Part shown: positions 16,500 through 18,403 of the stretch, piece after piece
Layout: the number at the start of each line of letters is the position of its first letter
How positions within the stretch are numbered: the stretch's first letter is position 1
DNA from: Thalassospira profundimaris
GTDB taxonomy: Bacteria > Pseudomonadota > Alphaproteobacteria > Rhodospirillales > Thalassospiraceae
Reading direction: 5' to 3'
Assembly: GCF_003326675.1 (NCBI RefSeq)
Contig: NZ_JPWF01000001.1
Coordinates: 124,001-188,000, forward strand
Length of the DNA: 64,000 bases
Notes under the pieces: generated by a model
Database searches by the model: none
Seen by the model: the letters and a program-made list of their open reading frames with translations, nothing else
Told to the model about the DNA's origin: nothing
Translations under genes and position numbers: made by a program

Positions 16500-17177
16500 T
16501 TACGCGGTTTGCGGCACAAAGGTGCCAAGGCGAACGGAATAATGGACCATAAAGGCTGTGGCGATGATCGGCGCGACCAGATTGACCACCGGAATGGTCA
16601 TTAGGAAAGTCAGCGCGATACCGGCAACCCAAAGTTTTTTCTGGCGGCTTTTGCGAATGGTTTCGACGGTGCGCGCATCATAACGGCGACCAGCAACCAG
16701 TTCAAAATATTCGCGCGACAGAAGATAGCCGTTCATGGTGTAGAAGGCGATAATATAAAGCGGCCCTGCCAGAAGAAGCGGCAAAATCAGAATGTTAAGC
16801 GCAAGGGCGGTCAGGGCAAATTTAAGACCGCTGATCAGGGCCTCGGAAACCGGCTGCGGGCGGGTATCGGGCAGGGTCGGGTAATGCTTGTCTTCGACCG
16901 CGTCGGCAATCTGGTCCAGCAGCAGGCTTGAAATCAGAACCGTGGCTGCGGGAAACAGCAAAATCACCAACAGGGTCAGACCGATGCCAAGCAGCCAGTC
17001 GACCGCACTTTCAAGCCAGCCGCCATCGGTGAAGAAGGTAATCGAACTCAGACCAAACCAGATCAGGAACCAAAGACCAATAATGGTTGCAAGCGCACCG
17101 GCAACCCCGATCAGAACAACTTTGCGAAAACGCGGGTCGGAAAATTGTGCGATGGATTTCAGAAAGTCGTTGATCAT
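16500..17177 (-). CDS. EI24-domain (CysZ-like) inner-membrane protein
   Basis: 225 residues with about four to six hydrophobic segments, of the EI24/CysZ family (Etoposide-induced 2.4 domain). CysZ in E. coli is a sulphate permease. The hydrophobic stretches are at about 19-42, 61-90, 105-135 and 190-215. Family cues are LISGLKFALTALALNILILPLLLAG, YTMNGYLLSREYFELVAGR and the C-terminal VNLVAPIIATAFMVHY. Alphaproteobacterial members are commonly of unknown function, so sulphate transport is not claimed. It is upstream of the bactofilin gene and probably leads that transcript. Confidence 0.8.
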   Translation of the reverse strand: MINDFLKSIAQFSDPRFRKVVLIGVAGALATIIGLWFLIWFGLSSITFFTDGGWLESAVDWLLGIGLTLLVILLFPAATVLISSLLLDQIADAVEDKHYPTLPDTRPQPVSEALISGLKFALTALALNILILPLLLAGPLYIIAFYTMNGYLLSREYFELVAGRRYDARTVETIRKSRQKKLWVAGIALTFLMTIPVVNLVAPIIATAFMVHYSVRLGTFVPQTA

Positions 17178-17358: not shown

Positions 17359-17500
17359 AAAAAAGGCGTCCGGCCAGGGGGGAGAACCGGACGCCAGCGC
17401 TCCGATGATCTGGAGCGTGAGGAAAGGTAGGGGAGACCTTTTCCTCACACCGGGTTCCCGTCATTTTGGGGAACCTTGTGACAGACTCACATATAGGAAG
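17359..17500 (-). ncRNA. Candidate small RNA with four hairpins and a strong terminator
   Basis: On the minus strand a chain of hairpins ends in a perfect 9-bp GC-rich stem (17365-17373 with 17387-17395) followed by six Ts (17364-17359), a textbook Rho-independent terminator. Upstream are stems at 17453-17459/17469-17475, at 17418-17428/17436-17447 (with one bulge), and at 17398-17403/17412-17417. Two loops, in the terminator hairpin and in the 17418-17447 hairpin, both expose TCTCCCC (RNA UCUCCCC, at 17379-17385 and 17430-17436), complementary to purine-rich ribosome sites. The lolA terminator lies 120 bp upstream, so it needs its own promoter, which I cannot place. The 5' end is an estimate. 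It matches no RNA family I know. Confidence 0.7.
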
Positions 17501-17620
17501 CTGACCGCCCCTCCGCCATAGTATCGCGGCTGAATTTTCTGCGATTTCACGAAGGTTTGAATGATTCCGAACTATCCTGGAATTCGTTACGAAACCCCAA
17601 TGTTGCCAAGGGCTTGAATC

Positions 17621-17664
17621 AAAAAATAATTACGCCCGACTGGTTCAAAAACCGGCCGGGCGTA
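17621..17664 (-). terminator. Terminator of lolA
   Basis: 8-bp stem core (17631-17638 with 17657-17664) that extends with mismatches inward, followed on the minus strand by ATTATTTTTT. It lies 40 bp past lolA and separates lolA from the candidate small RNA. Confidence 0.8.
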
Positions 17665-17704
17665 TTGTGATTTTCGGATCTTGGAAGAATGAAAAAATTC
17701 AGGA

Positions 17705-18403
17705 TCAGTTGCCGCTTTGCGGCCAGATACGCTTGAATTTGAACAGCTCGGGATCAAGCGTCAGACCTTCTTCGGTATTGAAAAGCGTCACAGTGGTTTC
17801 AATGCCGGTCGGGTCGGTGACGATCCATTGACGCAGCTGCATCGGCTTTTCGGCAAAGACCAGGGTCACACTGCCCGCCCCCGGATCGGATTTGCGAACA
17901 AGTTCAACACGGATGGTTTCGGCGGTGCGCTGAAAATTGACGACCTTGACCTTGTCAGTCAGGGAAATGTCCTTGGCCAGAATGATCCCGGCCGGGGTTT
18001 CATCGATGTCAAAATAGGTCGGCGCGTTGATTTCCTTGTCGAAGTAAATGAAATCATGCCCGGTCGAGACCAGAAGGATCTGGGCAGGCGGGTTATATTC
18101 AAACCGCATTTTGCCCGGACGTTCCATGAACAGTTCACCCTCGGCGGCACCGCCGTCTGACGAAATCTGAACGAAATCGGCTTTAAGGGTCGTGATATTG
18201 GCCAGATAGTTTTCGATCTTGGCAATCATTTCCGGACTGATTTTATCAGCCGACTGAGCGTGGGCCGCCTGTGGCAGAAAGGCGACGCTTGTAACAGCAC
18301 CAAGACCGATGGCGGTGGCAATGACACTTGCGGCAATCATGGCGCGGCTTTTACGGCCGATATGGTGCAGTGTTGCCTTTGAATTATTGCGGGTGAACGT
18401 CAT
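17705..18403 (-). CDS. lolA: Outer-membrane lipoprotein carrier protein LolA
   Basis: Periplasmic shuttle that takes lipoproteins from the LolCDE complex to the outer membrane. It has 232 residues with a long N-terminal signal peptide; the hydrophobic part is IAASVIATAIGLGAVTSVAF, with cleavage likely after AAHAQ (about 50). The mature domain has the family pattern KIENYLANITTLKADFVQIS, then GELFMERPGKMRFEYNPPAQILLVS (about 90-114), which is the LolA beta-sheet signature. DKEINAPTYFDIDETPAGIIL follows. A conserved arginine near FMERPGKMRFEY matches the lipid-binding site region. The ATG at 18403 gives a slightly long leader; a downstream ATG at about residue 22 (MIAAS) is an alternative. Confidence 0.92.
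   Translation of the reverse strand: MTFTRNNSKATLHHIGRKSRAMIAASVIATAIGLGAVTSVAFLPQAAHAQSADKISPEMIAKIENYLANITTLKADFVQISSDGGAAEGELFMERPGKMRFEYNPPAQILLVSTGHDFIYFDKEINAPTYFDIDETPAGIILAKDISLTDKVKVVNFQRTAETIRVELVRKSDPGAGSVTLVFAEKPMQLRQWIVTDPTGIETTVTLFNTEEGLTLDPELFKFKRIWPQSGN

Follow-up and report, generated by a model that had tools for sequence, protein, structure and literature searches.

A conserved small RNA gene beside lolA in Thalassospira, most likely an orthologue of Caulobacter RusT

Introduction

The small RNA RusT (CCNA_R0199) of Caulobacter crescentus, 118 nt long and encoded between lolA and xth, has its own promoter and folds into four stem-loops (PMC11005374). Its transcription starts at 3987216, on the plus strand. 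RusT pairs with its targets in an Hfq-dependent way through nt 45-57, a region that includes C53, a residue of the SL2 loop that matters for these targets; the Hfq footprint, at nt 72-87, is on SL3 (PMC11005374). The rusT gene is bound and repressed by NtrX, iron starvation induces the RNA, and RusT lowers several TonB-dependent receptors together with OmpW; homologues are mentioned for other Caulobacteraceae (PMC11005374). As to the binding site of NtrX itself, work on Rhodobacter sphaeroides has put forward GCA-N9-TGC (PMC7240162), and for Sinorhizobium PMC9223101 reports CAA-N2-5-TTG, not GCA-N9-TGC.

A second Caulobacter small RNA, GsrN, also has an exposed C-rich loop, and many mRNAs carrying G-rich stretches were co-purified with it; its homologues mostly adjoin general stress response genes and have a sigma-EcfG site (PMC5869019). 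Among the papers listed by our literature searches for a small RNA at a lolA-xth locus, or for the RusT name, none but PMC11005374 describes one. Here we describe a small RNA gene next to lolA in Thalassospira profundimaris, and compare its locus, structure, upstream region and likely targets with those of RusT.

Results

The minus strand of the window (by which we mean the whole stretch of 64,000 nucleotides that was analysed) carries, from 17484 to 17359, a conserved small RNA gene of about 126 nt adjoining lolA, a probable RusT orthologue. Its folding energy is -58.3 kcal/mol; the value for shuffles is -38.4 (sd 3.7), which gives z -5.36, and none of 200 shuffles is as stable. Four hairpins (nt 10-32, 38-67, 68-87 and 90-120) are followed by UUUUUU, and so the four hairpins and six-T terminator that a sequence-only reading had placed on the minus strand are borne out. 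Numbering here counts from 17484, a start predicted from the promoter box described below. Stem-loop 1 (17453..17475, minus strand, as are all elements of the RNA) gains an outer closure by the pairs nt 5-7/35-37, and is followed by stem-loop 2 (17418..17447), stem-loop 3 (17398..17417, nt 68-87, GCUCC..GGAGC) and stem-loop 4 (17365..17395), which is the terminator stem with a C-rich loop (z -4.46 when folded alone) ahead of the U run read from the sequence at 17359..17364. The motif UCUCCCC lies, as had been claimed, in two loops, those of hairpins 2 and 4. The loop of SL2 is CUCCCCU at nt 50-56, with a C at nt 53; by likeness to the RusT seed (nt 45-57, C53), we presume that target pairing would use nt 45-57, at 17428..17440. 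Two ORFs of 64 aa cross the region, but a protein-coding reading is unlikely, because the 21 distinct sequences of the genus range in length from 125 to 130 nt and the stems of the RNA are compensated.

Upstream lie a -10-like box, CCTATAT (17491..17497, minus strand), and a -35-like element, TGGCGG (17513..17518, minus strand). The combination TGG[CT]-N14-20-CCYATAT occurs in 29/30 genus loci, TGG[CT] itself being kept in 29/30. Because of the CCTATAT box, we place the 5' end, and with it the predicted start of transcription, probably near 17484; the earlier placing of the RNA's end at 17500 thus overruns into the promoter. A program scan for sigma-70 promoters and terminators listed neither this promoter nor either of the two terminators of the region. 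The second of these, a terminator-like hairpin (17620..17680, minus strand; z -4.46) followed by UUAUUUUUU, belongs to lolA, the gene upstream; lolA itself is at 17705..18403 on the minus strand (Pfam LolA, 89.7 bits, cut-off 23.6) and is the usual upstream neighbour of the RNA. The claim that lolA has its own terminator therefore holds for the window, but by eye the hairpin is not retained in all genus loci. The further claim, that the RNA is an independent transcript, is supported by the promoter-like sequence of the genus and by the conserved, compensated stems; the gene is very probably independent of lolA.

Other elements of this upstream region were also considered. The consensus of sigma-EcfG promoters is of the GGAAC-N-CGTT type, and no such promoter was found in the approximately 60 nt upstream of the RNA in any of 30 genus, 60 order or 39 class loci. 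A CC[ACT][AC]TNT box, which recalls heat-shock sigma promoters, is enriched near the RNA start (15/60 order and 9/39 class loci, against a background of 3.7-3.8%); a heat-shock-sigma promoter is no more than a candidate. The interval that separates the lolA terminator from the sRNA promoter also contains, at 17583-17596 of the window, a near-palindromic TTTCGYAAYGA block, found at the same place in 21/30 genus loci, which is possibly a regulator site.

By DNA search the RNA was found throughout the genus, in 29/29 genomes counting that of the window. In the alignment of the 21 distinct genus sequences the 3' half is nearly fixed, hairpins 1 and 2 show compensated changes, and the C run of SL4 varies in exact length; in diverged Thalassospira UCUCCCC has become UUUCCCC and UUACCCCCC. 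A covariance model built from these genus sequences (R1), which scores the window copy at 152.5 bits, matched 154/297 genomes of the order at E <= 0.001, including 29 of the genus, in 66/111 genera and mostly as one copy; it gave no match in 143. A second model (R2), built from 72 sequences of which 60 came from other genera of the order, matched 69/385 genomes searched at class level, four of the 69 belonging to the order, and gave no match in 316; E-values of both models are rough. For comparison, 60 order loci from other genera and 40 class loci were fetched, a non-random choice guided by their scores and their spread over families. Four class loci with the weakest matches (L198, L199, L203 and L204), where lolA and xthA are both missing, are probably false and are still counted within the 40.

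The sequence-only reading had called for a check of relatives for base-pair compensation, and across the order the stems of the RNA have changed in this way. In the order-wide alignment A2, which leans towards the covariance model because it was fitted to it, 95.4% of cells pair and 32/35 pairs have two-sided changes, with 443 such cells against 121 in shuffles. These pairs include 7/7 modelled pairs of stem-loop 1 and 12/12 of stem-loop 2, and stem-loop 3 is seen both in the fold and in A2. When 59 sequences were aligned freely by MAFFT and the alignment was folded with no structural guide, 17 pairs still emerged, of which 14 have two-sided changes. They belong to hairpin 2 and the terminator; this fold did not recover hairpins 1 and 3. 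A run of four or more C is kept in the SL2 loop in 70/72 rows of A2 and in the SL4 loop in 72/72.

At the gathering score, no Rfam 15 family matches the RNA, whether in the window or among 60 loci taken from relatives; the one match in those loci is a tRNA elsewhere in L192. Permissive thresholds were tried and set aside, giving sub-threshold matches only, of which the best was 6C at 24.8 bits. Tables 2, 4 and 5 of PMC6413936, on Thalassospira small RNAs, hold no match by eye, and none was found for the ten sequences compared by script. The statement that no known RNA family could be recognised is therefore right for Rfam but not for the literature, where locus and anatomy match RusT as described in PMC11005374. 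In a side search, Rfam CC2171 scored above its cut-off in 3/25 tested genomes (G390, G300 and G571, each of a different family code) and in the Caulobacter control genome.

Beyond the reach of R2, 40 further stretches 3' of lolA were taken from class genomes that it had missed or matched elsewhere, and 7 had a match at E <= 1. In one family (f70), loci L306, L308 and L325, with L326 added by eye, have the order lolA-RNA-xth and a C-rich SL2 loop, but no run of C in the loop of the terminator; these copies were seen only through weak matches (12-29 bits). Since they keep the locus and the SL2 C run but not that of SL4, the family drifts strongly, and they are a possible bridge to RusT. In the same four f70 loci, CCCCUCCC falls within the 5' part of the RNA or immediately ahead of it, and the terminator loop has a U-rich stretch. 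Six class loci (L188, L193, L194, L195, L200 and L205) have a third C-rich stretch, a run of at least six C near or just before the 5' end. In one genome (G324) the RNA occurs twice on a single 4.62-Mb contig, near each end (L201 and L202), probably through assembly overlap.

Neighbouring genes were counted within the fetched flanks, of 1.5 kb or, for 20 loci, about 6 kb. Upstream of the RNA and on the same strand is lolA, in 52/60 order loci, 24/40 class loci and 3/3 genus loci tested; in a 53rd order locus, L119, the contig end cuts inside lolA. Downstream, xthA (its identity confirmed for L209 only) was found in 32/60 order and 23/40 class loci, and both neighbours together in 28/60 and 16/40. 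As xthA lies downstream in 0/3 Thalassospira loci tested, only the lolA half of the RusT locus is present in this genus; there the downstream neighbour is a gene of the EI24/CysZ family (16500..17177 in the window, minus strand; Pfam EI24, 93.1 bits, cut-off 32), in the place held by xthA in many other genera. The EI24 protein of the window is 95% identical, over the best segment, to its counterpart in T. profundimaris PR54-5, which makes Thalassospira the most likely source of the window. The gap from lolA to the RNA in the order is often 60-160 nt. The two are separated by at least one gene in several class loci: at L209 this is a gamma-glutamyl-GABA-hydrolase-like gene, and similar ORFs are so placed in other class loci.

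An NtrX-type site precedes the RNA in much of the order. Within 130 nt upstream, GCA-N9-TGC occurs in 25/59 order loci (controls 5.6-8.6%) and 11/38 class loci (controls 4.0-5.3%); loci with less than 100 nt of upstream sequence (one order, two class) were dropped from the motif counts. A fuller 15-base form, GCATGNCNGNCATGC, at no fewer than 10 of 12 positions, is found in 27/59 order loci (controls 1.4-2.3%), lying 37-46 nt before the RNA in 23 of the 27, and in only 4/38 class loci (controls 1.1-2.7%). This suggests control by NtrYX, as in Caulobacter, and makes NtrX control of the RNA likely in the order. In Thalassospira, GCA-N9-TGC is present in 1/30 genus loci and is missing from the window copy, where the best 15-mer agrees with the NtrX-type site at 7/12 positions; the site is degenerate or gone. 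By analogy with RusT, the Thalassospira RNA may nevertheless be under NtrX and iron control. Searched genome-wide, GCATGNCNGNCATGC gives 1-6 sites in 19/20 order genomes, and its reversed control gives sites in 2/20.

Candidate targets were sought among TonB-receptor genes, the genome encoding ten TonB plug proteins and one Hfq match. The region considered was -60..+40 around starts predicted by a simple rule, which may err for some genes. GGGG is present near the start of 8/10 of these receptor genes, against 7/64 other genes of the window (Fisher 1.6e-5), and in three other Thalassospira it is present in 14/26 receptor genes, compared with the same 64 window genes (p 3.9e-5). The SL2 seed forms stronger duplexes with the receptor genes (median -12.35, against -9.45 for control genes, p 2e-4), also when expressed as z against shuffled seeds (p 0.003), and the window's seed does so on the 26 receptor genes of the three other genomes (p 0.009); the SL4 loop likewise pairs more strongly with receptor genes (p 0.004). 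The reversed seed does the same (p 0.003), so that the signal is mainly that of the G tract, and we have rejected duplex energies alone as a proof of targeting. The longer AGGGGA is not enriched (1/26 receptor genes of the three genomes against 0/64 window genes), nor is the CCCC mirror control (3/26 against 14/64).

Individual receptor genes illustrate these tracts. One (L256) has UAGGGGAGA upstream of its predicted start; another (L261) has AGGGGAGACC 3 nt before the ATG, with a duplex of -23.3 kcal/mol; and a third (L254) has GGGGG within its first codons, as do L274 and L273, with which it forms reciprocal best hits. The proposal that the C-rich loops could pair with purine-rich ribosome sites is thus supported by the G-rich starts of TonB-receptor genes, and target prediction with the loops gave an enrichment of GGGG that does not extend to a clear preference for the seed over its reverse. 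Receptor mRNAs are, from these starts, the putative repression targets of the Thalassospira RNA.

Discussion

We propose, with a probability of roughly 0.78, that this RNA is an independently transcribed, trans-acting sRNA, the Thalassospira orthologue of RusT, which uses a C-rich loop against the G-rich starts of receptor genes. It would be transcribed from its own promoter, from a start near 17484 to the terminator, leaving the SL2 loop UCUCCCCUA, and perhaps that of SL4, exposed for pairing. SL2 would then pair with TonB-dependent receptor mRNAs where these are G-rich, at the ribosome-binding site and in the first codons, and this pairing would lower the translation of the outer-membrane receptors. 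Hfq, whose binding we suppose by analogy with the RusT footprint (nt 72-87), would probably be held at SL3 and the terminator; the NtrX-type site points to control by NtrYX, as in Caulobacter, for much of the order.

That the Thalassospira sRNA is a RusT orthologue is most likely, and this homology rests on locus, anatomy and motif, RusT being compared by description. This same feature of the comparison leaves some room, clearly smaller than that for orthology of function, for a conserved sRNA which sits at the RusT locus but is not functionally RusT, being instead a general binder of Shine-Dalgarno sequences or G tracts, in the manner of 6C or GsrN, with other targets. The high conservation of the C-rich loops in a window copy that is without an NtrX-type site would fit such a general binder, as would the weak specificity of the seed over its reverse; against it stand the locus and anatomy shared with RusT, the NtrX-type site of the order, and the G tracts of receptor genes, which recur in three further genomes.

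In the order the RNA directly follows lolA on that gene's strand, often after a gap of just 60-160 nt, and it might alternatively derive from the lolA transcript, as a 3' end left by processing or attenuation, and not be an independent gene. We consider this improbable: in the window lolA is followed by a terminator-like hairpin of its own, the TGG[CT]-N14-20-CCYATAT sequence precedes the RNA in 29/30 genus loci, one or more genes intervene between lolA and the RNA in several class loci, and RusT has its own promoter (PMC11005374). Least probable of all, and in our opinion very hard to credit, is that the loops act by sequestering a protein (an RNA-binding protein or Rho) with no pairing to mRNA. 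Both loops are indeed runs of C, that of SL4 being variable in exact length; but RusT works by Hfq-dependent base pairing in which C53 matters for its targets (PMC11005374), and matching G tracts are present in the receptor genes.

The orthologous RusT-type sRNA that we favour would have consequences beyond Thalassospira. The RNA family is most likely far wider than the Caulobacteraceae for which it is described in PMC11005374, and reaches much of the class. We further suggest, as a proposition on which we are evenly divided, that it is the centre of an ancient alphaproteobacterial regulon: an NtrX-controlled sRNA at lolA-xth, whose SL2 (with SL4, except in some families, as a second seed) down-regulates receptors through the G tracts at their starts, and which would be a class-wide, Fur-independent counterpart of RyhB-type envelope and iron control. 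The RNA itself, mostly single-copy, with strong covariation and beside lolA in many families, would be one of few widely shared alphaproteobacterial sRNAs, and NtrYX, an envelope two-component system, would gain a conserved post-transcriptional arm. The prediction follows that these marine bacteria adjust their surface receptors by way of G tracts located at the start codon. The genome-wide GCATGNCNGNCATGC sites could reveal the NtrX regulon, and the RNA, absent from Rfam, could become an Rfam family.

Considering other RNAs with C-rich loops, the actinobacterial 6C RNA (Rfam RF01066) shares hairpin loops with C runs, but its model has two hairpins where the Thalassospira RNA has four, and the match of 24.8 bits is below the 47-bit gathering cut-off. 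The CcsR or cuckoo RNAs of Rhodobacter, compared here by description, likewise have C-rich loops, but these are CCUCCUCCC loops in small multi-copy hairpins. GsrN is also an alphaproteobacterial sRNA with an exposed C-rich loop; the Thalassospira RNA differs in adjoining lolA and in being without a sigma-EcfG-type site. From RusT it differs in its next gene, which is xth in Caulobacter and an EI24/CysZ gene in Thalassospira, and in the NtrX-type site of the window copy, which is not intact. With RusT, however, it shares the adjoining lolA, four stem-loops including a terminator, a length of about 120 nt, a C at nt 53 in the SL2 loop and the position of SL3 (nt 68-87, against the RusT footprint at nt 72-87), together with an NtrX-type site upstream in many relatives and receptor genes as the likely targets.
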